DNA from: a virus | Length of the DNA stretch: 34,737 nucleotides | Strand: one strand, 5' to 3' | IMG/VR virus record: IMGVR_UViG_3300025319_000066 | Location: 1 to 34,737 of that record | Shown here: in pieces, positions 7,504 to 34,337 of the stretch | Numbering within the stretch: the first letter of the stretch is position 1 | How the letters are laid out: each line of letters begins with the position of its first letter | Program-made: the position numbers and the translations under genes | The notes under the pieces: model-generated | Database searches by the model: none | Seen by the model: the letters and a program-made list of their open reading frames with translations, nothing else | Told to the model about the DNA's origin: nothing

Positions 7504-8928
7504 TCATCGAAAGTACTGCCCCGAGGGCGCCTTACCCGCCAGGCACGCCAGGGCCACGGCCCAGAACTTGTCGGCGTGATGCTTCTCCGCCCGGGCCACG
7601 TCGAAGGTCACATTCTTGGAGGGGGTTACTAATCGACGGATCGAGTGAACCTGGTTCGCCAGATCCCGGTCGGCCGGCAGATGGATCGTTCCCTTCTGGA
7701 ACCGCACCTTCGCCTCGACCGCCATGAGCTCCTTCGACTGATTGGTGAACGTTACCGGCATCACCCGCACCCAGAACTTGTGCTTCAGCTTCTCGGCCAG
7801 CATCATCCCAAGACCCGTCTCATCGACACATAGCCTCGTGATGGATAGCACTTCCATGGCGTGCGAGACGACGGCGAGCTGATCGTCGAAGGAAACGGTG
7901 GACAGACTGACCGCCAACCTGCACAACAGCGCGCTCTGGGGATCCCGACCGAACACCCAGAACTCGGTAAGGTCCTTCCGCCGCCCCACGTCCATGCCCG
8001 CCACCATGCTAATCTCGACCTGCCGCGAAGCCACCTTCCCGGCCAATTCGTCGATGGCAGCGTGCGCGTCCCCGACCGACCGAACCACGGTACAGTCCAG
8101 ATCGCCGGTCTGCGCCAACGCCTGCGCCCGCTTCACCTCGTCCCACGTGACGAAGGCCGTGGACTCGTCGATCCAATCACACTCGTACTCCTGCTGAAAA
8201 TCCTCCAGCACCATGTTGGCGTAGATGATCTGGAGGCGTTCGGTACCAAACAACCGCACCCTCTCCTCCGTGGCCTCCCCACCGGCCCAGACCCCGGCCT
8301 TCAGTACGTCAGTACACAGCGCCCGCGTCGTCCACCAGGGGAGGTAGTAGCGCCTGAACCCTGGGTACCGTTGAATGTTCTGCGCCGTGACTTCGTGAAA
8401 CATGCCCCCGGCGCCAAGTGGCGTAGAACCTATCCGGATGCAGCCGCCTCGTGTGGTGACGGGAAGCGCCGAAGCGTAGATGGCCCGATCCCTAGCATAG
8501 TGGGCGAACTCGTCCAGGTACACCCTCGCTCGACCCTTGCCCCGGATCGGCTTGCAGGGGTGCGACAGGATCCGACTCCCGTTGGCCAGGGTGACCGTGG
8601 TGGCGTTGTCGTCCGTTACCGCCGGGCGAACCGACTTGTCCAGCGCCTCGATGATGGCCTTGGCGTAGACGATCTTCTCCTTCGTTTCCTCCATGTTGAT
8701 TGAAACGAACACGCTCGTGATCCGGGGCTCAAGCGTTGCCGCCGCCACCGCATCGGCCGCCGCACAGAACGACCAACCGATCTGTCGGGCCTTGCGGCTC
8801 GTGGACAGCATGCCCTCGTCCGAGAGGAAGACGAGCTGATGCGCCTCCCAGACGGCCGCGTCGTCGTTCGTTGCGGCGGCCAGGTCAAGGTGCTCTATAA
8901 GAAACGCGGCGCGCAGACCGATGGTCAC
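7504..8928 (-). CDS. terL: Terminase large subunit (packaging ATPase/nuclease)
   Basis: A 474-aa packaging motor. The ATPase motifs are clear: a Walker A variant STSRKARQIGWSF (44-54), Walker B RVYLDE (135-140) and coupling motif IGSTP. The RNase H-like nuclease has its three acidic positions in AGMDVGRRKD (Asp313), CVDETGLG (Asp369) and HHADKFWAVA (Asp453). The open frame runs back to 9135, but the upstream part overlaps another gene in a different frame. GTG 8928 was chosen because it overlaps the preceding TGA (GTGA), as at many other junctions here, and gives a natural N-terminus. It lies upstream of the portal gene. Confidence 0.93.
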   Translation of the reverse strand: MTIGLRAAFLIEHLDLAAATNDDAAVWEAHQLVFLSDEGMLSTSRKARQIGWSFCAAADAVAAATLEPRITSVFVSINMEETKEKIVYAKAIIEALDKSVRPAVTDDNATTVTLANGSRILSHPCKPIRGKGRARVYLDEFAHYARDRAIYASALPVTTRGGCIRIGSTPLGAGGMFHEVTAQNIQRYPGFRRYYLPWWTTRALCTDVLKAGVWAGGEATEERVRLFGTERLQIIYANMVLEDFQQEYECDWIDESTAFVTWDEVKRAQALAQTGDLDCTVVRSVGDAHAAIDELAGKVASRQVEISMVAGMDVGRRKDLTEFWVFGRDPQSALLCRLAVSLSTVSFDDQLAVVSHAMEVLSITRLCVDETGLGMMLAEKLKHKFWVRVMPVTFTNQSKELMAVEAKVRFQKGTIHLPADRDLANQVHSIRRLVTPSKNVTFDVARAEKHHADKFWAVALACLAGKAPSGQYFR

Positions 8929-11549: not shown

Positions 11550-11564
11550 TCGCGGTTAACACGT

Positions 11565-11570
11565 ATTATA
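11565..11570 (-). promoter_or_regulatory. -10 box TATAAT just before terS
   Basis: The minus strand has a perfect TATAAT 16 bases before the terS ATG, in otherwise GC-rich DNA. No TTGACA-like -35 lies at 16-18 bases. A start site six to eight bases downstream would yield an almost leaderless terS mRNA, which fits its lack of an SD. It is the first promoter-like site after the large palindrome, consistent with a late-gene promoter. Confidence 0.45.
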
Positions 11571-11622
11571 CACCTGTTTCTCCCGGACCGCCGGGTGTTT
11601 CGGCCGCCCCTGTTCAAATTTG

Positions 11623-11736
11623 GATCTCGTTTACAGTTTTACTTCGAGTAGAAACCCTCATAAGGGGGGTTACCTTACATATAAAGTAACCCCCTCTAAG
11701 GAGGTTTCTTCTCCGGGTAAAACTGTAAACGAGATC
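11623..11736. repeat. 114-nt nested palindrome between early and late genes
   Basis: Outer arms are a perfect 19-bp inverted repeat: gatctcgtttacagtttta at 11623-11641 and its complement at 11718-11736. Inside lies a second imperfect hairpin (11651-11673 with 11686-11708): gaaacc stems, a mismatched middle, then a 9-bp gggggttac/gtaaccccc stem around a 12-base AT-rich loop. It starts four bases after the primase-helicase stop and ends about 70 bases before the terS start. Both strands fold. Possible roles are bidirectional terminator, replication origin, recombination or end-processing site, or a small mobile element. No long U-run follows on the minus strand. Confidence 0.85.
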
Positions 11737-11740
11737 GGCT

Positions 11741-14095
11741 CTAGCCTCTCCATTCCGACTCCGCCAGCGCCCTGGCCTGCCACTCCTCCCGGATCCGCAG
11801 GCCCAAGACGGCCCGGACCGTCGTTTCTCCTCGCCCAACGGTCTTGAGAGAGTAGCCCAGAGCCTGGAGCACCTGACTAAGGTCCCGCTTGGTCGGCGGC
11901 CACCTGGTGCTCTGGTTGTCCTTCCACCAGGCGGTCAGAACGTTGTGAAGCTCTCCTAGTGATGCCGACCCCTTCCCGACCTCGGTCGGGTCGTTCCCGG
12001 GTACCTGCAGCGTGGTGTCCTCCAGAAAGCTCTGCCGCCAGTCCTCGAGCTCCACGAAGGAGTCCGTCCACTCCTGGGTCTTCGCCGGCGGTCGCAGCCC
12101 GTTCTCCCAGACGTCACCGGCGCCCCGGATCGCCCACCCCAGGATCCCCTCGGGTCCCGCCGCCAGGATCTCGTCCATCAGGTGCGGGTTGGCCTCCTCC
12201 GCCGAGCACGTGCTCTCGAACTCGACCACCAGTAGGCGGCGGCGCATCGCCAGGTCCCAGTTGGGCACGACGGGGTACGTGTTCGTGTCCAGCACCACCA
12301 GGACGGTCGGCGTGAACTCGTGGATGTCCGTATACTTCAGGCGGGCGGCGATCGGGTTGTGCCCTGTGATCTCCTTCACCCGATCCTGCCGCAGTTCGTC
12401 CCCCGGCCCGGGCTCGCTGATCCAGACGAGGCGCCTTCCCTCCAGAAGGGTCAGGGCGTTCTCCAGGTCCACCTCTTGTCGTGGCCGGGACAGGATCACC
12501 CGCTTGTCCGTCGTGCCCGCCAGCTCCGGTCCGAGCACGCTAACGAGCGTGCCGCAGAACGTCCCCTTCCCGTTCCTCCCCCACCCGTGCAGGATCGGAA
12601 ATACCTGCTCGTTGTTCGTCCCGATCAGGGCGTACCCCGCCAGCCGCTGCATGAACGCCGCCAGCTCGGCATCTCCGCCCATCGTCCACGCCACGAACTC
12701 TTCCCACCGGGCGTTAGCGGCGCCCTCGACGTACCTCGTCGGGCAGCGACGGGTGATGTAGTCCTCGATCCGGTCCTCGCGGAACATGCCCGTCGCCAGT
12801 TCCACCGTACCGTTGGCCACCTTCACCAGCCCGGGCGTCGCGTCGAACCTGATCCCGCTCGCCTCTAGGCTCGTCTCCTCGAAGCCACTGTACGCCTTGA
12901 TCACGTTCCGCATCCACGGATCGTTGCGTAGGTGCTTGGCCTCGTGTACCAACAGCAGACTCCGCCGCCGGGCGCTTCGGGTCTGGGCGATCTCGGCCGG
13001 AATGATCCGCTGTCGAACGGCCCGAAAGGCGTCGAACACCACCGAGGCCGCGGCGTGCCCCGTCCGCCACACCCCCAGGCGGTGGTCGAAGGCGTACCAC
13101 GTTCGGGCCCTGCGATCGAACCACGTTTGCCCCTTCATCACCTGGTGAAGGCGCTTCCCGTCGTCCACGTGCTCGAACCCTATTACCCCGGCGTTCGGGT
13201 CGTCAACGTCGTTGGCACCCTCGTCTGGTGGTTCGGTCTGTCCACCAGCCGAACGACTGCCCCCCAGAATGGCGCCTGCGTACTTCTTCCTTCCGCTCTC
13301 GATGAACCGCCGGAGCCTGGCCTCCTCGATCCCGGTGCCCTGCTGTTCGTTCACCGTCCGCAGAACGGTCATGATCACGTCGTCCGGGTCGCCCCTCGCT
13401 ACCATCCGGGCGGCCTCGTTGCGAAGCCATCCGTGGGCGTCCCCCAACTCGGGGGTCGGTAGGGGCGATAGAACGCGGTTCTCCACCGTCTCCCAGCCTT
13501 CCGGCAGGAGTTCGATCAGCTCGGCTAGGGGCCACGTCCCTTCGGTGTACCGTTCGAAGTCGACCAGGCGGGGCGGATCGTACTTGATGTTCCACGTTCC
13601 CGGCACGCGCAGCACCCGTGCGAGGTCCTTCGCCTCGGGGTCCGCCCCGACCACGCCGACCCAGGCCGCCTGGATCCTCGTCACCCGTTCCCGGATCCCG
13701 TTGGCGTCCAGGGTCACGGTTTCGTCCAGCATCCAGTAGCAGTGAAAGCCGCCACCGCTGTCGACCACCACGTTCGGGACGGCCGACAGACCGTACACGT
13801 GGGCGAGCGCCTTCCCTCGATCTCCTTCGTATATCTTCCAGTCCACGTCGGCGTACAGGCAGTTGATCGCCGTCACCTCGGCGTTGGTCAGTCTGTTCGT
13901 CGCCGTCCGGCGTGCGGCCATGCCGGAGTGTACCGACCAATAGATGTTCTTCTTGCCCTCGGCAACGGCGATCGATCCTCCCTCGGGGATCCAGATGGTC
14001 TTCTTGTGTCCCTCCGCAAGGCGCTGCCACAAGTAGGCGTCGTGCCCGCCCCGCCGAAGGCGATCGAACAAGGATTGGGTCCGTTCGTCACTCAC
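11741..14095 (-). CDS. Primase-helicase (AEP-like primase domain plus SF3/D5-type helicase)
   Basis: A 784-aa replication protein. The N-terminal primase-polymerase-like motifs are CLYADVDWK (Asp83, Asp85), SGGGFHCYW (His118) and DLARVLRVPGTWNIKYDPP. The middle resembles the D5_N region. The C-terminal superfamily 3 helicase has Walker A GWGRNGKGTF (504-513), Walker B RLVWISEP (555-562) and a sensor strand VLVVLDTNTYP (599-608). A winged-helix tail is likely. It would prime and unwind DNA for the phage family A polymerase. GTG 14095 overlaps the glycosyltransferase TGA, with GGAGG four bases upstream. The large palindrome follows the stop. Confidence 0.9.
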   Translation of the reverse strand: MSDERTQSLFDRLRRGGHDAYLWQRLAEGHKKTIWIPEGGSIAVAEGKKNIYWSVHSGMAARRTATNRLTNAEVTAINCLYADVDWKIYEGDRGKALAHVYGLSAVPNVVVDSGGGFHCYWMLDETVTLDANGIRERVTRIQAAWVGVVGADPEAKDLARVLRVPGTWNIKYDPPRLVDFERYTEGTWPLAELIELLPEGWETVENRVLSPLPTPELGDAHGWLRNEAARMVARGDPDDVIMTVLRTVNEQQGTGIEEARLRRFIESGRKKYAGAILGGSRSAGGQTEPPDEGANDVDDPNAGVIGFEHVDDGKRLHQVMKGQTWFDRRARTWYAFDHRLGVWRTGHAAASVVFDAFRAVRQRIIPAEIAQTRSARRRSLLLVHEAKHLRNDPWMRNVIKAYSGFEETSLEASGIRFDATPGLVKVANGTVELATGMFREDRIEDYITRRCPTRYVEGAANARWEEFVAWTMGGDAELAAFMQRLAGYALIGTNNEQVFPILHGWGRNGKGTFCGTLVSVLGPELAGTTDKRVILSRPRQEVDLENALTLLEGRRLVWISEPGPGDELRQDRVKEITGHNPIAARLKYTDIHEFTPTVLVVLDTNTYPVVPNWDLAMRRRLLVVEFESTCSAEEANPHLMDEILAAGPEGILGWAIRGAGDVWENGLRPPAKTQEWTDSFVELEDWRQSFLEDTTLQVPGNDPTEVGKGSASLGELHNVLTAWWKDNQSTRWPPTKRDLSQVLQALGYSLKTVGRGETTVRAVLGLRIREEWQARALAESEWRG

Positions 14096-15108
14096 TCGGC
14101 CTCCGGCACGTCATCGAACGCGTTGGGTTGGGTTACCCACTCGCCGTTCTTCCACTCCTGAAGGACAAAGTCGGCTCCGTTGGGGGGCAAAACGTATCGG
14201 GTAGTTTCGTGTGGCGTTTCTTCCTTCTCTTCGGTCGGGATGACCTCGGCCTCGGTACGGCGGGTGACCCACTTGCCGTCGATGAGGTCCTGGAGCACCA
14301 TCCCGTAGTCGTTGGTCCCCTCGGGAACGACCACGCCGTCCCTTAGCTTGAGCCTGTTGCGTTTCTGAAACCCGCTGTAGTCGACCAGGTGCTGGGGGCG
14401 GCCCCACCGCTCGGTGATCCGGGTAACGTCGGGGTGCTGTTCGACCAGCGACTCGGCCATCCGTAAACGACCCTCGTCCTGGTAGAGCTCGGTCAGGTTA
14501 CCTCCCTTCATCGTCATCGTCTGCATCTTGGCGGCGAGGAAGGTGTTGAACAATACCGTGCACCAACCGTCCTTGAGCGCCCGCAATGATAGGTCGGTAT
14601 CCTCGTTGTACCGGCCCCGCCATCGGTACGGTAGATCGTTTCGGATCAGGATGCAAGAGTAGATTCGGGTGTTTAGGTAGAACGGAGGCATCGCTACCCG
14701 TCGAACCGCGAACATGAAGTATTGGAATCCGGACAACGCCACGTTTTCGTACCGATCGGTGAAGTCCTCGGCCGCTCGAAAGATCGTTCCGGACGATACC
14801 TTGATCTTCATGTTGCGGTTCATGCGACAGAACTTCTGGATGTTGTCGTCCAGAATCCAGTGCCGTTCGGCTCCCGCCGCGATGGAATGCTCCCAGACGA
14901 AGTTGCGAACCGGAATGGAGCCCTGTCCGAGGTTGGAGAAGGGCGTCGTGATGATCTTCGCCGGATCGATGACCGCCGCGTATTCGTCGTATTCCTGGGG
15001 CTCGACCACGATGGAGTAGGGCACCCCGAGTTGTTCTAGTGCCCTTGACGTCATACGGCTCTTGGCCCGCCCCTTTGAGATCACGTAAACAGGGTATTTG
15101 GGGTTCAC
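14092..15108 (-). CDS. TET-associated-type glycosyltransferase (TAGT family)
   Basis: A 338-aa protein starting at GTG 15108 (GTGA junction, SD GAGGAG). It matches the phage TAGT family described with TET/JBP oxygenases: YVISKGRAKSRMTSRAL at the start, VVEPQEYDEYAAVID, PFSNLGQGSIPVRN, the acidic pair in HWILDDNI (Asp87-Asp88), and the long RWRGRYNEDTDLSLRALK segment. By family knowledge such enzymes are predicted to attach sugars to hydroxymethylated bases in phage DNA. The C-terminal tail carries two short copies of a VLQ-x3-[DN]G[KE]WVT motif. The upstream neighbour is a 115-aa protein with a WYP-type end. No TET/JBP dioxygenase is in the window, so the base substrate is unknown. Confidence 0.85.
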   Translation of the reverse strand: MNPKYPVYVISKGRAKSRMTSRALEQLGVPYSIVVEPQEYDEYAAVIDPAKIITTPFSNLGQGSIPVRNFVWEHSIAAGAERHWILDDNIQKFCRMNRNMKIKVSSGTIFRAAEDFTDRYENVALSGFQYFMFAVRRVAMPPFYLNTRIYSCILIRNDLPYRWRGRYNEDTDLSLRALKDGWCTVLFNTFLAAKMQTMTMKGGNLTELYQDEGRLRMAESLVEQHPDVTRITERWGRPQHLVDYSGFQKRNRLKLRDGVVVPEGTNDYGMVLQDLIDGKWVTRRTEAEVIPTEEKEETPHETTRYVLPPNGADFVLQEWKNGEWVTQPNAFDDVPEAE

Positions 15109-15452
15109 GACGTCTCCTCGTCGGCGTACCGCATGTACTTGAACTCCATGGGATCCTTCTGGGGGTACCACATGAACCGGGTTCGACGGCCGATGGGCTG
15201 GTCGACCAGCTTGGCGAAGGAGTCGAGGGCAGCCTGGGAGTCGAAGTGTACGACGATCTGTTTCCAGGATTGGATGTCTTCCTGTTCGTACTCGGGCATG
15301 CCCTTCCATTCCAGGTCGGCCAACCGAAAGTCGTCAGGATCTCCGAACAAGGTACTTTGAACGAGTTCCCTTTCCGGAACACGGAGCAAAGAGTCGTCGG
15401 GCATCTCTGGTCGCGGCGGGGAGGAAAACAGCAAACCCTGTTGTTCGTTCAT
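15105..15452 (-). CDS. Small phage protein with C-terminal FAKLVDQPI...WYP domain (115 aa)
   Basis: ATG 15452 overlaps the previous TGA (ATGA). The N-terminus has MNEQQGLLFSSPPRPE and STLFGDP. The C-terminal half (WKQIVVHFDSQAALDSFAKL, GRRTRFMWYPQKD) resembles a small domain I recognise at the ends of phage DNA methylases and ParB/nuclease-like proteins, where it may aid DNA or partner binding. It directly precedes the TAGT gene and is probably co-expressed with it. That domain link is from memory of family patterns and should be treated as moderate. Confidence 0.65.
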   Translation of the reverse strand: MNEQQGLLFSSPPRPEMPDDSLLRVPERELVQSTLFGDPDDFRLADLEWKGMPEYEQEDIQSWKQIVVHFDSQAALDSFAKLVDQPIGRRTRFMWYPQKDPMEFKYMRYADEETS

Positions 15453-25050: not shown

Positions 25051-26808
25051 TTACCTCCAATAGTCGTCTATCTTGATCTTGGCCCTTGGGCTACACGGAC
25101 AGGCCCGGTTCATGCCTGTCAGCATAGCGTCCCGCAATTCGGCCGCATACTCCTCGGCCATCGTTGCGAGCACGGTGGCGACCAACTCGTCATGGTTCTG
25201 AAGTCCAACATATCCTTGGATCAAGCCCTGGCGGTGCGCCTCTAGTATCCCGTACTTGATGCCGGCTGCCGCCGTTCCCTGCACCATGGTGTTGAGAAGA
25301 ATGGTGGGTCGGAGCTGCGCGCCGGCAAGCATTCGTTTCAGGCCGCTGGGCAACTTGACCATCACCATCCGACGCGCCCGTGCGGTATCCTTGGCGCGCT
25401 GGTGAAAGTTCGCTACGTCCCGAAATCTATCGAAGAACGCGTCGACCACGTTCTGGGCCTCTTGCGGAGACAGTGTTCCGCCGCCCCGTCGGGCGTACTC
25501 GTACAGCTTGGCCACCCCACCCCCAAACAGAATGGTGAAAGAGATCGCCTTGGCTAGCTTTCGAAGCTCGGGGGTAACCTCGGCGATCGGTACCTTGAAC
25601 ACCGTGGCAGCGATTGCCGTATGAACGTCGTCCGTCTCTAACAGCTGAAGAAGAATGGGGTCGTTGGCCAACTTGGCAATGATCCGAACTTCGATCTGCG
25701 AGTAGTCTATGGCGACGATCTTCTTTCCTTCTTCCCACCCAAAGATCTTTCGCATCTTCACAGGGAGTTGTTGTCCGTTCGGTTCGCTGCTTGCATAGCG
25801 GGTCGTGTCCGTGGAGCACTGCCAGAACTTTGGGTGAATGCGCCCGTCGGGTCCGACGTACTGGGCGACCCACGCCTCGTCGTACATCCGGATGTCGTGA
25901 TCCGCTGCCCGGTACCGAAGCACAAGACCGGCCAGGCGCCCGGCCTCGCCACCAAGATCCACAAGGTCTTGGAGCACCTCGGCGGCGGTACTGTCAATAT
26001 CGACGCCACGAGCCTGAAAGGCCTGTCGAAGCTTGACGTGTTGACGAACCGAGATGTCCCCGAACTCGGCGGCGTACTGCGGTGCGACCTCGTCTAGTTC
26101 GGCTTGCAGGTCTCCGAGGTATGCTGTCAACTTGTTCGTACTCAGGGGCAGGCCGTTGATCGTCATCCAGGCGGTGGGCAGCCCGAGCTCCGTTTCCATG
26201 TCCAGACCCGCACGGGTCCCCGTTTCCTCCGCCCGTTCGAGTTGAGCACGCCGTAGGGCAGGAAGGTGCAGGACGTCCGTCATGGCGTACGAGACCTGCT
26301 GCTCCGTTAGTGCTTCTTCCCAATGTCCGTGCTCGATATCCTTGTCGATGGGCAGTCCCAGGCGACGCTTCACGGAGGCCTTGAGACTCTTCGAGACGTT
26401 TCGACGTTGTGTCATGGTGATGGCGGTTTCGCCGACCAGCGTGTCGTACCACGAAGCCTTGTTGATGTCGATCCCGGCCTGGTGCAGGAACGGAATGTCG
26501 AACGATACGCCGTTGTGGGCGACGAACAGCTTCTTGGCCTCGAGTACGTCCTTGATGGGGTCGGGGATCCTACCGTTCACCGTACGGACAAGCCCGGCGG
26601 TTCCGGTTTCGTCGCCGTAAAACTGGAGGATGGCCAGTCGATCCCGCCAGGGACTGAAGCCCGTGGTCTCGGTGTCGAACCCAATAACGGTATCGGGCCC
26701 AAGACGCCGAGCGATCTCTGCCGGATCGAGAATGATCGGGTGGCCCTCCACCATGGGTCGAAAGGGGCCGGGTTCGTCGAACTGGTCGGAACCGATGACT
26801 AGTCCCAC
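25051..26808 (-). CDS. polA: Family A DNA polymerase with 3'-5' exonuclease domain
   Basis: A 585-aa replicative polymerase. The exonuclease has GFDTETTG (Asp45, Glu47), AHNGVSFDIPF (Asp104) and YAMTD (Tyr174, Asp178). The polymerase has motif A AIDYSQIEVR (Asp368), motif B RKLAKAISFTILFG (416-429) and motif C QNHDELVA (His539-Asp540-Glu541). Motif B differs from the usual RRxxKxxNFGxxYG: Asn to Ser, Gly to Thr and Tyr to Phe. No 5' nuclease domain is present. GTG 26808 has GAGGA six bases upstream and overlaps the zinc-finger gene. Works with the primase-helicase and possibly the nearby nucleotide-pool enzymes. Confidence 0.93.
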   Translation of the reverse strand: MGLVIGSDQFDEPGPFRPMVEGHPIILDPAEIARRLGPDTVIGFDTETTGFSPWRDRLAILQFYGDETGTAGLVRTVNGRIPDPIKDVLEAKKLFVAHNGVSFDIPFLHQAGIDINKASWYDTLVGETAITMTQRRNVSKSLKASVKRRLGLPIDKDIEHGHWEEALTEQQVSYAMTDVLHLPALRRAQLERAEETGTRAGLDMETELGLPTAWMTINGLPLSTNKLTAYLGDLQAELDEVAPQYAAEFGDISVRQHVKLRQAFQARGVDIDSTAAEVLQDLVDLGGEAGRLAGLVLRYRAADHDIRMYDEAWVAQYVGPDGRIHPKFWQCSTDTTRYASSEPNGQQLPVKMRKIFGWEEGKKIVAIDYSQIEVRIIAKLANDPILLQLLETDDVHTAIAATVFKVPIAEVTPELRKLAKAISFTILFGGGVAKLYEYARRGGGTLSPQEAQNVVDAFFDRFRDVANFHQRAKDTARARRMVMVKLPSGLKRMLAGAQLRPTILLNTMVQGTAAAGIKYGILEAHRQGLIQGYVGLQNHDELVATVLATMAEEYAAELRDAMLTGMNRACPCSPRAKIKIDDYWR

Positions 26809-27883: not shown

Positions 27884-27910
27884 TATAGCCTTCCTCTTTC
27901 TTATTGATTT

Positions 27911-27950
27911 CCCCGGGGTGGGGAAGGAGGAGGAGGACCCCACCCCGGGG
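27911..27950 (-). terminator. 13-bp perfect hairpin before the methyltransferase
   Basis: ccccggggtgggg (27911-27923) pairs with its complement at 27938-27950 around a 14-base loop. On the minus strand it is followed by AAATCAATAAG and then the SD, not by a U-run. It may act as a weak terminator, processing site or mRNA stabiliser. Confidence 0.6.
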
Positions 27951-28008
27951 TAGTTCAACCGACCGGCGGTTTACCGTTGTCCGGGCCGACGGCCGGGGGA
28001 ACCCTAGA

Positions 28009-29501: not shown

Positions 29502-29520
29502 GCTGCCTTCTCCTGAATTC

Positions 29521-29548
29521 ATTCTATCACGTTTCGGATATTTGTAAA
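29521..29548 (-). promoter_or_regulatory. Promoter TTTACA-N16-TAGAAT before the kinase-glycosylase gene
   Basis: -35 TTTACA at 29548-29543, 16-base spacer, -10 TAGAAT at 29526-29521 with a TGA extension (GTGATAGAAT). Best sigma70-like site seen in the window. It follows a strong hairpin, so it probably starts a new transcript. The start site would fall past ATG 29522, favouring TTG 29501. Confidence 0.6.
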
Positions 29549-29560
29549 CAGGGAAAGGGG

Positions 29561-29596
29561 GGACGGGACGACCCAATTTCCTGGGCCGTCCCGCCC
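29561..29596 (-). terminator. 15-bp stem-loop with G-U pairs after the 68-aa gene
   Basis: Arms 29561-29575 and 29582-29596 pair fully in minus-strand RNA, with two G-U wobbles around a 6-base loop. On the plus strand those positions would be C-A mismatches. It begins just three bases after the stop of the 68-aa gene. Likely a terminator or RNA processing structure ahead of the promoter at 29521. Confidence 0.6.
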
Positions 29597-29599
29597 GTC

Positions 29600-29806: not shown

Positions 29807-30105
29807 GCTAGAGCTCCCTCTTCTTCAACGGCGACTGACTGGTCACCATGCTTGATGCCGTGGTTCTGCCCGGTGCAGATGCAGTGACACGGCGTCGTGG
29901 GGTCGGCCCTCTTGCAGTTCTCGACGCATAGGCCGGTCTCCGACACGGTGTCGGGTCGGAGGTTGGCGTCGCACAGGCGGCCGTCCACGATGACGAACGC
30001 CTTCTTGTGGTTTCCGCCGCGATAACCCTTGAAGCCAGAATGACTGGCGATGTCACCGACCCACACCGACCGATGGTCCTGATGGTAGATCACCCAGCGA
30101 TCCAT
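29803..30105 (-). CDS. Small Cys/His-rich protein (100 aa)
   Basis: MDRWVIYHQDHRSVWVGDI, then a beta segment KAFVIVDGRLCDANLRPD and a Cys/His cluster CVENCKRADP, CHCICTGQNHG that likely binds zinc. Ends acidic (AVEEEGALA). ATG 30105 has a full SD (GGAGGTGAT) and overlaps the upstream gene by 16 bases. Function unknown. Confidence 0.65.
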   Translation of the reverse strand: MDRWVIYHQDHRSVWVGDIASHSGFKGYRGGNHKKAFVIVDGRLCDANLRPDTVSETGLCVENCKRADPTTPCHCICTGQNHGIKHGDQSVAVEEEGALA

Positions 30106-30320
30106 CGGCGCATCACCTCCCTCAGGGACGGGCTGCCGCCCTCCGACAGCGGTCGGGTCCTGCCGAATTGAACCTCGTCGTCGATCTCGACGAGGGGAGT
30201 GCCGAGGTTCCACCCGACGAAGCCCGGCATCTCCTGGGGGTGAACGTCGAACTTGCGCTCGACCGACGTGGTGGGGTTGCAGTAGTACCAGACCGGTGGT
30301 GAAAATCTCAGTACGCTCAT
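30090..30320 (-). CDS. Hypothetical protein (76 aa)
   Basis: ATG 30320 with AAAGGAGG upstream. Begins MSVLRFSPPVWYYCNPTTSV and ends REVMRRWIAG. Beta-like, no domain recognised. A strong GC hairpin lies in its leader. Confidence 0.65.
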   Translation of the reverse strand: MSVLRFSPPVWYYCNPTTSVERKFDVHPQEMPGFVGWNLGTPLVEIDDEVQFGRTRPLSEGGSPSLREVMRRWIAG

Positions 30321-30342
30321 TGCAGTTCCTCCTTTGTTTGGT

Positions 30343-30373
30343 GGGGCCCGGGGCGGACTGCACCCCGGGCCCC
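30343..30373 (-). terminator. 11-bp perfect GC hairpin downstream of parB
   Basis: ggggcccgggg at 30343-30353 and its complement at 30363-30373, with a 9-base loop. It lies 14 bases after the parB stop and just before the SD of the 76-aa gene. No U-run follows on the minus strand. Confidence 0.6.
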
Positions 30374-30387
30374 TGGCGGAATTTGGG

Positions 30388-31296
30388 CTACTCGTCCAGT
30401 GCCTTCTCGATCTGCACCGTGAGTTTCTTGGACAGATGGAGCAGGTTCTTCAGTACCACCCTACCCCCGCCTCTATCCTCTTCCGACTTGGCGATCGACG
30501 CCACGAGCGCCGATGCCGCCTTCAGTCCTTCCTCCGCGAGCATCGATTGCGGGTCCTTCAGCCAAGAGAAGTGGGTCTTGACCACCCGCCCGGGCGCCTT
30601 GGCCTTTTTGTCGGGCCGGCGTGCCGGGAGTACGGCGTGGGCGTTGAGGATGGAGTCCTTGTCCTGCTTCAGCAACGCCGTAACCGCCTTGGGTCCGCCG
30701 AGGTCCTGGGCGCGCCTGGCGACCTCGGCCACCATGCGGGTGTCGCGGGCGGAGAGCTTGTCCTTGGCGGCCTTCTGAAGAACCTGCCCGGCCAGCTTGA
30801 GGTCGCCGCCGGTCCCGGCCTTGGCCTCCCGAACCGCGTACTCGGTTATATCGCGCGATATATTTCCCAATTCGGGGTCCAGCATGTTGAGATAGGCGCC
30901 GACCCAACTTTGAGCATGTCCCAACTTCCTGGCGAGCACCTCCTGCGTGCACCCCGTCGTCTCGATGATCGCCTGCAGGGCATTGGCCACGTCGATGGCA
31001 GCCATGTTCTCCCGGACGACGTTCTCGATCAGGCTCTGCGTCAGCAGGTCGCCGTCCTCGCCGGTGACCACCAGTGCGTCGACCTCCGTCATCCCGGCGG
31101 CCTTGGCGGCCTGGACCCGACGGTGCCCGTACACTAGGACGTACGCCCCGTTGTACGCCCGAACCTTGACCGGCACGAGCTGGCCCACCTCTCTCAGGCT
31201 GGCCTCGAGCTCCTCGAGCAACTCGGGCGACATTGATTTGCGAACCCTTTCCGACAGGCCTTGGATCTTGTTGAGCGGAATCTTTTGCAGTTCCAT
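30388..31296 (-). CDS. parB: ParB-like partition/CTPase protein (302 aa)
   Basis: The ParB/Spo0J fold is clear: GQLVPVKVR, the GHRR box (57-60) in VLVYGHRRVQAAKAAG, ENVVREN (91-97, CTP-binding region) and an HTH segment (CTQEVLARKLGHAQSWVG). The C-terminal helical region (about 160-302) is long. In phages, ParB-like proteins can aid plasmid-style partition, gene regulation or DNA modification. No ParA partner is seen in the window. ATG 31296 has AGGAG six bases upstream. A 16-bp palindrome lies inside its own coding sequence (30847-30862). Confidence 0.88.
   Translation of the reverse strand: MELQKIPLNKIQGLSERVRKSMSPELLEELEASLREVGQLVPVKVRAYNGAYVLVYGHRRVQAAKAAGMTEVDALVVTGEDGDLLTQSLIENVVRENMAAIDVANALQAIIETTGCTQEVLARKLGHAQSWVGAYLNMLDPELGNISRDITEYAVREAKAGTGGDLKLAGQVLQKAAKDKLSARDTRMVAEVARRAQDLGGPKAVTALLKQDKDSILNAHAVLPARRPDKKAKAPGRVVKTHFSWLKDPQSMLAEEGLKAASALVASIAKSEEDRGGGRVVLKNLLHLSKKLTVQIEKALDE
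30847..30862. promoter_or_regulatory. 16-bp perfect palindrome TATATCGCGCGATATA inside parB (parS candidate)
   Basis: The site is perfectly self-complementary over 16 bp, the size of known parS sites. It codes for Ile-Ser-Arg-Asp-Ile using two ATA codons, which are otherwise rare in this GC-rich genome. That argues for pressure on the DNA itself. Binding by ParB is a proposal. Confidence 0.45.
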
Positions 31297-31319
31297 TCAT
31301 ATCTCCTTTTGCGTGGTGG

Positions 31320-31348
31320 TGGGGGCAGGGGATGGACCCCTACCCCCA
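31320..31348 (-). terminator. Stem-loop with one G-U pair downstream of the DUF932 gene
   Basis: Arms gggggcagggg (31321-31331) and cccctaccccc (31337-31347), plus a flanking T-A pair, surround a 5-base loop. The odd position pairs G-U only in minus-strand RNA. It lies between the DUF932 stop and the parB SD (AGGAG). No poly-U follows. Confidence 0.6.
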
Positions 31349-31364
31349 ACCGTATCGGATCGAA

Positions 31365-32447
31365 CTACACTGTTCTGATGGCCTCGGCGAACGCACGGAC
31401 CTTGGCCTGCGCCCGTCCGCCGAATAGTGCGGCGACCAGGATGTCGCCCTTCCCCTCACGGTAATCTTCGAGCTCGACCACCGCGTTGTACGCCGCCCAG
31501 GCAGTGCCGCCCAGGCCTGGGAACTCGTCTCCGAACTTCGTGTACAGTTTCAGCGCGGCGTCGCGGAGCTGCTGTGCCCTCTCTAGCCCGTGCTGGACAC
31601 CGTTCTTGGCATCGTGCAGTACAGCAGCGTCGGCAGAGGAAAGCTGAACGTCCGTGCCGAATAGCTCTTGTGCCAGCATTGCCTTTTCTCCGACCTTGGG
31701 GTCCGGGTAGGCGGATCGCAGGATGCCCTCCAAGGCGTCGGTATTCAGCAACGCTTTGGCCAAGCGATCGAACTCTGCCAGGGTCCTGCCTTGGGCCTGC
31801 TCGAGCTGCTTGATCAGTCCGACGCGAAAACCGAGCTGACCGGCAACGGACTTCGTGTGGATGATCCGCGCCTGCACCGTGGCCTGCCGCAGCCCGGTGA
31901 CGAGCGTATTCTGGCAGACCACCCGCACGGGAGTGAAGGCGATCTTGAGCGAAGTACCGCCGTCCTTCGTATCCGTTACGAGGAAGTACCGATGGATCCG
32001 CTCCGTACCGTTCCCGTTGCCCAGTACCGTTTCACCGGCGTCCAGTACCAGGAACATCGTCTTGCCGGCGTCCAGGGCGCCGATCGTCTCGACTGGCCAC
32101 CGCTCGGTCAAAGGGTCGAGGGCGGCGCCGATGTCCGTGTTCTGGATGACGGTATAGCCCTCGCCGGCCCAGCCGAAGCACCGGTACTGGTCGTCATCCG
32201 GCGTCGGCTCGCGCACGATCGCCACGCGCCCTTCGATCGGTCTCCATCCGGCCGGGATTGTGATCCCGGCGTCGGAGGTAAACGCCGGCGCCTCGAACCC
32301 GATGGGTCGGGTTACCACCTGGAAGTGCAGGCAGGCGGCCGTCACCGCCTCGAGCGCCCCGAGAGGAGCGTCGAAGGTTCGACCCAGCCCGTGCCAGGCC
32401 GGTTCGCGCCTCCCGAGGAAGCGTTCCCCAAAGATGTTCGCAGACAT
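31365..32447 (-). CDS. DUF932 family protein (360 aa)
   Basis: Matches the phage/plasmid DUF932 (TIGR03299-like) family: REPAWHGLGRTFDAPLGALE at the start, AWRPIEGRVAIVRE, CFGWAGEGYTVIQN and the core IAFTPVRVVCQNTLVTGLRQ. Helical tail. The role of the family is unknown. ATG 32447 has AAAGGAGG six bases upstream within a hairpin leader. It is often found near replication or partition genes. Confidence 0.85.
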   Translation of the reverse strand: MSANIFGERFLGRREPAWHGLGRTFDAPLGALEAVTAACLHFQVVTRPIGFEAPAFTSDAGITIPAGWRPIEGRVAIVREPTPDDDQYRCFGWAGEGYTVIQNTDIGAALDPLTERWPVETIGALDAGKTMFLVLDAGETVLGNGNGTERIHRYFLVTDTKDGGTSLKIAFTPVRVVCQNTLVTGLRQATVQARIIHTKSVAGQLGFRVGLIKQLEQAQGRTLAEFDRLAKALLNTDALEGILRSAYPDPKVGEKAMLAQELFGTDVQLSSADAAVLHDAKNGVQHGLERAQQLRDAALKLYTKFGDEFPGLGGTAWAAYNAVVELEDYREGKGDILVAALFGGRAQAKVRAFAEAIRTV

Positions 32448-32461
32448 GTGTTGCCTCCTTT

Positions 32462-32506
32462 TGGGCAGGTCCGCCCAGCGCCGCACCGGTGCCGTCACCG
32501 GTGCGG
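32462..32506 (-). promoter_or_regulatory. Double stem-loop leader before the DUF932 gene
   Basis: A TGGGC-N6-GCCCA hairpin (32462-32477) sits immediately before the SD AAAGGAGG. Further upstream is an 11-bp perfect hairpin ccgcaccggtg / caccggtgcgg (32481-32491, 32496-32506). Both form in minus-strand RNA. The same TGGGC-N6-GCCC layout occurs before two other genes. Confidence 0.6.
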
Positions 32507-32531
32507 GACCTCGATGGACCTGGTTGAAGGT

Positions 32532-33299
32532 CTACCGTCCTAGCGGCACGCACTGACCGCCCATGCAGCTTGTGAGCGCCTGGGCCTGTTTCTGGCTCAG
32601 AGGCCTGCCCGGAAGGTTGCTCACGGCTACCCAGCCCAAGCATCGGAACTGAGATTCCTTGGCCGGGGGGTACCAGCTCGATCCCTCGTTGGGATCCATG
32701 TCGGATCGCAAGGAGTACGATGCGAACCAAGCGTCCTGTCCGTCAGGTCCTACCAGGTGCCACAGCCAGCCGCACGGATCCTGGTGACACTGCTTTGGCT
32801 CCGGGGTCGACTCCGGCGTCACCGTCGGAGTACCGCCCACCCCAGTTGGCGTAGGAGAAACATCACCCGGAGTAGACGTCGCTGTTTCGGTAGCTGTGTC
32901 TCCAGGCGTCGGAGTTGACTCTGGCTCTGTGGGACTGGCGGTAGGAGTCTCACTTGGCACCTCCGTCGGCTCGATGTTTACCGTAGCGGTAAAGATAGGC
33001 GTTTCGGTAAAGATCGGCGTCTCACTTGGCGCCTCTGTGGGAAGTACGCAGGCCCCGAAGTAGTCCTGCTCGTGCCCGGCTTGGGGTGTGCCGTCCTCGT
33101 TGAAGTGCCCGCCCGGCCCGTAAACCGCTGGGTACGGTAGCGTCAGGGTGACGTAGTTGGCCGGGTCGGACGCAAGTCCGGCCACATGGCAGATAGTGAA
33201 CGTCTCTGGCGGACCACCCGCCTCCGCCCGAAGCAAGCTGGCTGCCAGTACAGCGAGGATCAGGATCAGACCCACCACAATCCACGATCGTTTCGTCAT
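32532..33299 (-). CDS. Secreted/anchored Thr-Pro-rich protein (255 aa)
   Basis: A signal peptide or anchor (about 5-24, WIVVGLILILAVLAASLL) is followed by a small domain with TICHVAGLASDPANYVTLTL and GGHFNEDGTPQAGHEQDYFG, then a Thr/Pro/Glu linker (87-168) and a C-terminal Cys-containing domain (CHQDPCGWLW ... QFRCLGWVAVS). The TPTETPTP-type linker is typical of cell-surface proteins, notably in Chloroflexota, which is a weak clue to the host. Four or more Cys may form disulphides. ATG 33299 has AAAGGAG upstream. Function unknown, perhaps superinfection exclusion or surface modification. Confidence 0.8.
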   Translation of the reverse strand: MTKRSWIVVGLILILAVLAASLLRAEAGGPPETFTICHVAGLASDPANYVTLTLPYPAVYGPGGHFNEDGTPQAGHEQDYFGACVLPTEAPSETPIFTETPIFTATVNIEPTEVPSETPTASPTEPESTPTPGDTATETATSTPGDVSPTPTGVGGTPTVTPESTPEPKQCHQDPCGWLWHLVGPDGQDAWFASYSLRSDMDPNEGSSWYPPAKESQFRCLGWVAVSNLPGRPLSQKQAQALTSCMGGQCVPLGR

Positions 33300-33313
33300 T
33301 CGTATTCTCCTTT

Positions 33314-33359
33314 CGGGCCGGACTGCCCGCGCCCTCCCCCGAGCGGAACTCGGGGGAGG
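33314..33359 (-). promoter_or_regulatory. Double stem-loop leader before the secreted-protein gene
   Basis: Hairpin CGGGC-N6-GCCCG (33314-33329) directly precedes the SD AAAGGAG. Upstream is a perfect 11-bp hairpin cctcccccgag / ctcgggggagg (33333-33343, 33349-33359). Same layout as at 32462. Confidence 0.6.
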
Positions 33360-33371
33360 TGGCTGGAAGTC

Positions 33372-33812
33372 CTACTTGCAAGGATCGCCTCGGGTCTGAA
33401 GATAAGAACCTCTGGACTGTTGGAAGACTACAACTTGACTTCCTGGTTCAACGGATGCCGGGAGAGTTCCAACAATTTTGATTAGTGTTCCAGACCCCGA
33501 TCCAGTTGTCTTTAGGGTAGCAGGATAGATCTTGATGACCACCCTGCATTCAATCAGAAACGGCGGCATCGGGGTTGGGTCCGCCCAACGCCAGCCCCCC
33601 AGCAGACAGGTCTTTACCGCGTCACCCACGCTGTTCGGAAGGTGTATCTCGTTGATGATTTGGTGAGCTAGGATGCCCTCGTCTCCCTCCGGTACTGTAA
33701 GGGTATCCCAGTTCAGTTGGCACAGCGCAGGATCCAGAATTGGAGCAGCCTTGGGACCACAAGCCGCCAACATCGGTACAAATAGTGCAAGGGCCAACAG
33801 CAGCTTCTTCAC
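33372..33812 (-). CDS. Putative lipoprotein (146 aa)
   Basis: MKKLLLALALFVPMLAAC is a signal with lipobox LAAC (Cys18). The mature domain has ILDPALCQLNWDTL, CLLGGWRW and LIECRVVIKIYPATLK, a beta-rich fold with paired Cys. It starts with GTG 33812 after AAAGGAGG. Function unknown; surface exclusion is one idea. Confidence 0.78.
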   Translation of the reverse strand: MKKLLLALALFVPMLAACGPKAAPILDPALCQLNWDTLTVPEGDEGILAHQIINEIHLPNSVGDAVKTCLLGGWRWADPTPMPPFLIECRVVIKIYPATLKTTGSGSGTLIKIVGTLPASVEPGSQVVVFQQSRGSYLQTRGDPCK

Positions 33813-33827
33813 GTCAACTTCCTCCTT

Positions 33828-33872
33828 TGGGCCGGTGCGCCCATCCCTGCCGCTGAGCCTCGAGGTTCAGCG
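33828..33872 (-). promoter_or_regulatory. Stem-loop leader before the lipoprotein gene
   Basis: Hairpin TGGGC-N6-GCCCA (33828-33843) precedes the SD AAGGAGG. A 10-bp hairpin with one imperfect pair lies further upstream (33851-33860 with 33863-33872). Third copy of the leader layout. Confidence 0.55.
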
Positions 33873-33896
33873 ACAGTGCATCGGCGGGCCGACGGG

Positions 33897-34337
33897 TCAT
33901 TGAACGGGAATGACCAACCCGAGTTCGATCTGCTTGACCAGGATCGGTGGGGCGCAGGCGACGCATGCCAGTTTGCCGTCCCACCAGATCCTCTCGCTGT
34001 CCGGCACGGGGTAGATGTATCTGCCCTCGCCGGACGGAACGTGTACCCCACAGAACCCGCATTTGCGGGCCCGGGCGCGCCTTCCGGTTGGTTCCTCGCC
34101 TCCGTCCTCTTCGACGACCTGGTGAACGCCGCGGAGGACCCGGACGATGTCCCTGCTGGTGACCGCCTTCGCGTCCGGCACGTACCTCCCACGCATGGCC
34201 TTTGGCAGGTCGTAGTGCGCGTGCCTGGAGCCCGTGTGGAACATCCGGCGCCGGATACCGTGGGACCCGGCGAACTCGTGCAGTTCGTGCAGGCCCTTGT
34301 CCGACACGACGTGGACGCCGTCCGTGTAGATGGTCAC
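33897..34337 (-). CDS. DUF4031-domain protein with C-terminal zinc finger (146 aa)
   Basis: MTIYTDGVHVVSDKGLHELH, GIRRRMFHTGSRHAHYDLPK and DAKAVTSRDIVRVLR match the DUF4031 pattern. The C-terminal half has CGFCGVHVPSGEG and LACVACAPP, a zinc site. GTG 34337 overlaps the upstream TGA (GTGA). SD weak. Role unknown. Confidence 0.8.
   Translation of the reverse strand: MTIYTDGVHVVSDKGLHELHEFAGSHGIRRRMFHTGSRHAHYDLPKAMRGRYVPDAKAVTSRDIVRVLRGVHQVVEEDGGEEPTGRRARARKCGFCGVHVPSGEGRYIYPVPDSERIWWDGKLACVACAPPILVKQIELGLVIPVQ

Follow-up and report, generated by a model that had tools for sequence, protein, structure and literature searches.

Double-hairpin leaders between the stop codon and the Shine-Dalgarno sequence in a phage and its relatives

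The window analysed here is the whole 34,737-nucleotide stretch of IMG/VR virus record IMGVR_UViG_3300025319_000066, a 34.7-kb phage record in which all genes lie on the minus strand, those for the portal, terminase, primase and a family A polymerase among them. Small genes occupy 28.6-34.7 kb, including ParB-like, DUF932 and DUF4031 genes and one that resembles uracil-DNA-glycosylase but scores below the Pfam cut-off. Within this region, five consecutive intergenic gaps between 30.3 and 33.9 kb, each of 67-84 nt with borders set from the Shine-Dalgarno (SD) sequences and open reading frames, fold more stably than their shuffles (Table 1). Three of them contain the element considered here, a double-hairpin leader that reaches from the upstream stop codon to the SD of the next gene (elements 1-3). 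The initial annotation of this DNA had already reported hairpins just before the SD; its coordinates and sequences are correct, and the minus strand, on which the gaps fold, is the coding strand. Among the remaining gaps of at least 20 nt, comparable z-scores are found only at 11550-11740 (-9.5) and 29502-29599 (-6.2), with 27884-28008 reaching -2.0.

The hairpins are of two types. Type B is long, begins 12-24 nt past the upstream stop and is present in all five gaps, whereas type A is short, lies 0-1 nt from AAAGGAG and is present in three. The second and single hairpins that had been annotated separately both exist, but they are not separate kinds, as both are of the B type. The B sequences differ among the five gaps, and the nearly invariant arms that characterize the repeats of phage clusters EG and O are not seen. 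At 31320, the annotated paired change indeed corresponds to C-A in plus-strand and U-G in minus-strand RNA. The annotated triplicate pattern GGGC-N6-GCCC, with 0-1 nt before AAAGGAG, occurs in its exact form three times in the window and in none of 300 dinucleotide shuffles. When up to three mismatches are allowed, four matches (two of them one site in two registers) compare with 1.95 expected and are equalled by 14 of 100 shuffles, so that the relaxed pattern is not unusual in the window.

Beyond the hairpins already annotated, elements 1-3 share a short strand (a) near the upstream stop that is complementary to the loop of hairpin A, with the long hairpin B in between. The order from 5' to 3' is strand a (~7 nt, at or just past the stop), B (10-14 bp), 2-3 nt, A (4-6 bp, with a loop of mostly 6 nt), SD and start codon. 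The loop-a complement spans 5-6 bp in two of the three elements and contains a mismatch in the third, element 1, where nested folding offers the alternative register GTCGG:CCGGC.

Table 1. Leader features, gap stabilities and flanking genes in the window. R1, covariance model built from relatives; z, folding stability relative to shuffles.
Feature	Position	Strand	Remarks
Element 1, leader of 146-aa gene	33814-33896	-	z -2.9; passes descriptor scan without 5-nt loop complement; R1 8.5 bits, within noise
Element 1 strand a, CCGATGC	33878-33884	-	6/7 positions pair with loop region GCACCGG, one A-C mismatch
Element 1 hairpin B	33847-33876	-	fold and descriptor scan
Element 1 hairpin A, TGGGC-GCACCG-GCCCA	33828-33843	-	adjoins SD
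Element 1 SD, AAGGAGG	33821-33827	-	gene start 33812 (GTG)
Element 2, leader of 255-aa gene	33305-33374	-	top R1 match of whole window
Element 2 strand a, AGGACT	33368-33373	-	overlaps upstream TAG stop (33374-33372); GGACT pairs with loop AGTCC
Element 2 hairpin B, 12 bp	33333-33359	-	fold and descriptor scan
Element 2 hairpin A, CGGGC-AGTCCG-GCCCG	33314-33329	-	fold and descriptor scan
Element 3, leader of DUF932 gene	32453-32522	-	R1 runner-up in window
Element 3 strand a, CAGGTCC	32516-32522	-	AGGTCC pairs with loop GGACCT, 6 bp
Element 3 hairpin B, 11 bp	32481-32506	-	fold and descriptor scan
Element 3 hairpin A, TGGGC-GGACCT-GCCCA	32462-32477	-	fold and descriptor scan
B-type hairpin only, leader of ParB-like gene	31321-31347	-	z -3.0 and -3.4 (two computations); no A hairpin
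B-type hairpin only, leader of 76-aa gene	30343-30373	-	z -3.2 and -4.6 (two computations); no A hairpin
Gap	30321-30387	-	z -3.2
Gap	31297-31364	-	z -3.0
Gap	32448-32531	-	z -4.5
Gap	33300-33371	-	z -3.2
Gap	33813-33896	-	z -3.1
76-aa gene	30090-30320	-	B-only leader upstream
ParB-like gene	30388-31296	-	PF02195, E 1.7e-16
DUF932 gene	31365-32447	-	PF06067, E 1.5e-27; downstream of element 3
255-aa gene	32532-33299	-	element 2 upstream
146-aa gene	33372-33812	-	GTG start at 33812; element 1 upstream
DUF4031 gene	33897-34337	-	PF13223, E 1.3e-12; stop codon upstream of element 1

Terminase and DUF932 searches led to related loci in which SD-abutting hairpins are repeated within one phage, with sequences specific to that phage; none of the contigs recovered spans 30-34 kb of the window. 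Four other phage groups (G001, G053/G054/G055, G056 and G005) carry 28 copies of the element, 27 of which lie directly before an SD and start codon, and the GC content of copies ranges from about 40 to 73% across the five groups including the window. The five leaders of G001 (L043/L066) consist of TTGAACG or YTGAACC, a long hairpin, a short hairpin (GGGAT-CGTTCA-ATCCC, GGGAC-GGTTCA-GTCCC or GAGGC-GGTTCA-GCCTC) and the SD; the strand ahead of B complements the A loop, and both vary together. The DUF932 protein of G056 is 39% identical to that of the window and both genes carry the element, while G005, whose terminase shares 52% identity with that of the window, has three GC-rich copies found by the covariance model R1.

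The limits of the element are sharp. When the 28 copies in relatives are taken together with the three of the window, whose starts were set by hand, 27 of the 31 elements start no more than 5 nt ahead of or 6 nt past the point where the upstream stop codon ends, and in several the TGA of YTGAAC is the upstream stop itself. All but one of the 31 precede an SD and a start codon. The exception is an extra copy in L216 (1726-1794), in which strand TAGAGC and loop GCTCTA are both changed and no SD directly follows.

Fifteen leaders of G001 and G054/G055 could be aligned (alignment A3), leaving out two TAGAAC elements (L216:9044 and L222:10105) that were shifted by MAFFT and whose loop-a pairing is 5/7. 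With rows 2, 3 and 5, which are partly misaligned in B, counted against the structure, 95.9% of cells are paired and 14 of 23 base pairs show substitutions in both partners (36 cells of this kind), a level that none of 500 shuffles reaches; sliding the alignment by one column leaves at most 50% paired. The loop-a helix itself is 97.1% paired, with covariation at two positions. Across 26 elements (those of G005 and L216:1726 were not counted), loop-a pairing averages 6.35 of 7 positions, a mean reached by one in 20,000 re-dealings of the loops when the three window elements are included and by 157 in 20,000 when they are omitted. In addition, L215 and L216 share 99% identity across 6.6 kb, but one leader within this stretch alternates between GAGGC/GCCTC and GGGAC/GTCCC, corresponding to two compensatory pairs. 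Together these data leave little doubt that the relatives carry a selected RNA structure. Covariation in related phages had been proposed as a check at the outset, with free drift of the hairpin sequences as the outcome that would tell against them; instead, the pairing is kept.

A function at the DNA level, as an operator, a promoter, or a recombination junction or cassette border, has precedent in that phage intergenic repeats have been read in this way before, as described in the accessible portions of the reports on cluster K extended start-associated sequences (ESAS; PMC3203893), cluster O (PMC4351075) and cluster EG (PMC7302621), and a similar-looking double repeat in Nocardia phage NTR1 resembles a promoter plus operator. 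The five gaps, however, contain no promoter-like site, the orientation of the leaders is fixed relative to SD and stop, their sequences vary while pairing is kept, and the complementarity is both nested and crossing. The compensatory leader of L215 and L216 moreover sits within the near-identical block and not at a break. We consider a DNA-level role highly unlikely. The sole promoter-like site at 29.4-34.7 kb, TTTACA-16-TAGAAT (29548-29521, minus strand), lies in the gap at 29502-29599, where it follows a strong hairpin directly past a stop codon.

The covariance model R1 was built from 17 leaders of G001, G054/G055 and G056 with the window excluded; its alignment (A5) omits L066:9921, L216:5819, the TAGAAC elements and the G056 leaders 17098 and 18270, which have long B inserts, and its E-values are rough. 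Searched over the whole window with filters off, R1 places element 2 (28.0 bits) and element 3 (16.0 bits) at the top, compared with a maximum of 12.7 bits in a control of 66.7 kb from GC-rich relatives. A descriptor scan for B, A, SD and start in this order, applied to 2.30 Mb of fetched DNA, recovers all three window leaders; in total it finds 19 double-hairpin-SD leaders, where shuffling gives 1.5 per replicate. With the requirement that 5 nt or more of the loop be complemented, seven remain (five in G001, two in the window) against none in shuffles.

Several observations weigh against assigning the window leaders to the element of the relatives. The window A loops (GGACCT, AGTCCG and GCACCG) have no sequence in common with those of the relatives and lack their TTC core, and their complementarity to strand a is modest when taken alone (joint P 0.007 in dinucleotide and 0.0005 in mononucleotide shuffles; P 0.04 by longest run in dinucleotide shuffles). 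The score of element 1 (8.5 bits) ranks fifth of ten and falls below the control maximum, which element 3 exceeds modestly. Hairpin A is absent from two of the five window gaps, loop-a pairing in G005 amounts to four contiguous bp, and the full element is found at two of six DUF932 genes examined (window and G056), with those of L003, L242 and G001 lacking it and that of L002 having an SD-abutting hairpin but not the full element. As to the relatives, copies inside one phage group do not count as independent cases, and changes may pass between them by gene conversion. The missing TTC core would make the window leaders divergent members at most, judging by their loops; the core may, however, follow from the loop-a pairing and be unneeded for the architecture. 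On balance, the window leaders probably belong to the relatives' element as divergent, GC-rich members, with element 2 a clear member according to the model, element 3 a probable one on the same grounds, and element 1 a putative member by anatomy only.

The opposing possibility, that chance or GC-rich local structure created these leaders and that they form no common family, draws on the behaviour of the exact hairpin-SD motif by itself, which turns up here and there across viral contigs (paired stems in 87 stretches against broken stems in 48; 35 against 22 distinct start-associated sites; 8 against 4 outside long open reading frames). Many of these matches fall within collagen-like coding repeats, and the bare motif was rejected as a general signal and is not used as support. 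Since it is weakly enriched, the case rests on the whole anatomy and the relatives. Chance would have to account for five of five consecutive gaps, the shuffle tests, covariation in relatives and an independent model match, and is disfavoured for elements 2 and 3; overall, we judge it highly unlikely.

Searches further afield with R1 gave no match in stretches of seven isolated phages (phiLo, Emery, MN1, Clawz, AnnaSerena, NTR1 and Enygma) or in five metagenome-assembled genomes (MAGs). Isolated-phage stretches other than that of NTR1, Hyperion included, contain few or chance hairpin matches. A BLASTN search of 50,697 phage records with one element as query produced no match, and Rfam 15 at gathering score yielded none in the window, L066, L068, L069, L102, L104, L215, L216, L244, L071 or L243, the permissive limit adding only matches far below the gathering scores. 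R1 also has no match in L209, L069 and L002, which have repeated SD-abutting hairpins too; these were kept apart, as was L158, which was outside that search. In L209 (9715 and 8857, minus strand) and L158 (1429, plus strand), a phage-specific leader has GTGGGGGCAAGCCCGCCC and then AAGGAG following a long hairpin of variable sequence, and in L069 (9422, 9225 and 8944, minus strand) the palindrome GGAAACGGCCGTTTCC immediately precedes AGGAGG in three leaders of this phage. A second leader class occurs in phages that carry the element (L066 12435, 12087 and 11008, minus strand; L216 454, 800 and 1137, plus strand). In this class the SD is preceded by two long hairpins and then by one whose loop reads AATTCG, ATTTCG or CATTCA, and alternative pairings overlap.

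The leaders are best read as an RNA element between cistrons that controls the initiation of translation, most likely as a ribosome-released switch. We suggest that, in the free leader, strand a would pair with the A loop and open hairpin A, whose pyrimidine-rich 3' arm could then pair weakly with the SD and keep initiation low. A ribosome at the upstream stop would cover strand a, allowing A to re-form and freeing the SD, such that the element would couple or meter the translation of successive accessory genes. For this full mechanism, in which we infer both the switching and its direction, we estimate a probability of roughly 0.4. Loop-a pairing and hairpin A could be mutually exclusive or could coexist as a pseudoknot, and a pseudoknot with both pairings is equally compatible with the covariation.

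Nested folding yields two states, one with A formed and one with strand a paired to the A loop, enclosing B and leaving the 3' arm of A free; the latter often shows a helix of ~3 bp between this arm and the SD. The lowest-energy nested fold has the a-loop pairing in 25 of 27 elements and keeps hairpin A in two, as counted from printed folds alone with the loop constraint not enforced and with the first energy for L216 7969 and L215 6031 stemming from another hairpin. When the first 12 nt, the part that a terminating ribosome would occupy, are removed in silico, SD availability goes up in 23 of 29 leaders (means from 0.12 to 0.29), compared with 52% of shuffled leaders, and the opening cost drops by 0.63 kcal versus 0.10 in shuffles, an effect reached by 25 of 2,000 sets.

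Other aspects of the folding speak against such a switch. Six of the 29 leaders shift in the opposite direction upon removal of the 12 nt, L066 8160 strongly, and the SD-blocking helix of the alternative fold comprises only ~3 bp. Native SD availability (0.52) is barely above that of shuffled leaders (0.44; higher in 18 of 29), and insulation of the SD by the hairpins was dropped on these weak figures; for all three window elements, availability lies below that of their own shuffles. Strand a of elements 1 and 3 begins ~12 and ~9 nt past the stop, respectively, and ribosome coverage is therefore less certain there. The deletion support is modest and non-independent, and our estimate for the switch is set accordingly. 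Two further ideas were dropped: a loop-SD pseudoknot in the three double leaders, which amounts to merely 2-3 bp by eye, and CsrA-type loops on the plus strand, because this is not the coding strand.

The TTC core of the A loop, kept while the stems change in G001, G054/G055, G056 and G005, is the pattern expected of a protein-bound hairpin. A phage or host protein could bind the leader, either at the short hairpin and its loop or at a pseudoknot, and co-regulate translation of the carrier genes in the manner of T4 gp32, for which the gene 32 leader pseudoknot offers a precedent (PMC3014915, in the part accessible); the numerous copies per genome ahead of unrelated genes would fit as well. Mutual constraint of the two pairing sides, however, also predicts loop conservation, the three window loops differ with the pairing alone retained, and no candidate regulator was identified. 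We therefore regard protein binding as a serious, if somewhat unlikely, alternative to the ribosome-released switch.

The initial annotation had offered translation control, termination or RNA processing as functions. Translation control and processing remain the best class of explanation, whereas termination does not, as no T-run follows the hairpins in the five gaps on either strand. If the gap were cut, or if it blocked exonucleases, separate mRNAs would result, with B capping the new 3' end and A the new 5' end beside the SD. In keeping with this arrangement, B begins near the stop and the end of A abuts the SD, gaps with B only exist, and the leaders are stable (mean z -5.9 over 29 elements). 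A role in messenger processing or stability nevertheless leaves unexplained both the a-loop complementarity and the start at the stop codon; we rate it as unlikely. Relatives of the window terminase occur in MAGs that span several phyla, Chloroflexi (twice), Omnitrophota and Bacillota among them, and do not point to a single host phylum with its set of RNases.

Of the two gaps with only a B hairpin, both have loops complementary to their own start regions by eye, without statistics (UGCAGU/ACUGCA before the ATG at 30320 and UCCAU/AUGGA at 31296). The gap at 11550-11740 holds a very long, near-perfect inverted repeat (minimum free energy -90 kcal/mol) that may serve in termination, processing or replication. 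At 14092-15309, a match to PHROG 842 (beta-glucosyl-HMC-alpha-glucosyltransferase, E 2.3e-42) suggests that the phage may modify bases of its own DNA.

The leaders are similar to, but distinct from, repeats known in other phages. T4-type PeSL cassettes are stem-loops repeated between phage genes together with an early promoter, whereas the five window gaps have no promoter; the PUT antitermination RNA of HK022 has two adjacent hairpins at operon starts, whereas the window elements stand before each SD. To our knowledge, phage start-associated repeats have been listed since 2011 with no function known. In the accessible sections of the cluster K mycobacteriophage reports, the start-associated sequence (SAS) is a fixed 13-mer, GGGATAGGAGCCC, that contains the SD (PMC3203893, PMC11373665), and the ESAS inverted repeats have a sequence consensus whose departures do not support RNA pairing, with promoter hexamers inside (PMC3203893). 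As described there, SAS and ESAS are repeated per genome just 5' of non-structural gene starts in gaps of >50 bp, with a second inverted repeat 5' of about half, and in this the window leaders are alike. In contrast, the window SD lies outside the hairpin, sequences vary while pairing is kept, promoter hexamers are absent from the five gaps, and the 13-mer around the SD does not occur in the window leader sequences; the difference in sequence from SAS that had been annotated thus holds.

The inverted repeats of Microbacterium cluster EG (Hyperion) likewise occupy short gaps, 14-22 bp before starts (PMC7302621). Judging from the available text for clusters EG and O and from the Hyperion sites examined, both nonetheless have one near-invariant repeat with neither a second hairpin nor a loop complement (PMC7302621, PMC4351075). 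At two variant sites in Hyperion (L065 60733 and 57000), AATCAACC..GGTTGATT, both ends are altered together, and EG repeats too may therefore act as RNA hairpins. In NTR1 (L231), starts at 8022, 8347, 8737, 9872 and 14524 (plus strand) and at 25773 and 4190 (minus strand) are preceded by a repeated leader with a TTGCAC/TTGTAC box, the palindrome GCACGGAACCCGTGC or a variant, and TAA/TAC, with a hairpin such as GGTGG-TCTCA-CCACC ahead of the start. By its motifs, this leader looks like a -35 box, an operator, a -10 box and, where the mRNA would begin, a hairpin; with its different, promoter-like double repeat and no R1 match, NTR1 was rejected as an isolated carrier.

As in the T4 gene 32 leader, a pseudoknot-capable phage leader RNA would control translation initiation; there, according to the part of the account available, a single gene is regulated by its own protein through a pseudoknot 67 nt before the start (PMC3014915), whereas here the element is present in many copies, each occupying its gap as far as the SD. 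Coupled translation of neighbouring genes is known (PMC12548453, in the portion accessible), and we propose that in these phages the coupling would fall to a dedicated, repeated RNA fold. No description of a repeated phage leader pseudoknot was found in the open-licence literature. The leaders thus look like a reusable RNA control element that is not yet catalogued. Tentatively, they may form a portable family of translation-coupled RNA switches, absent from Rfam, that serves as gene punctuation in five phage groups and senses when a ribosome reaches the upstream stop, through a strand that would open the SD-guarding hairpin if left free. The leader set combines strong RNA covariation, sharp limits from stop to SD and natural compensatory variants, which make the mechanism directly testable. 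If the switch operates as proposed, these phages would carry a portable module that sets the translational linkage of neighbouring genes.

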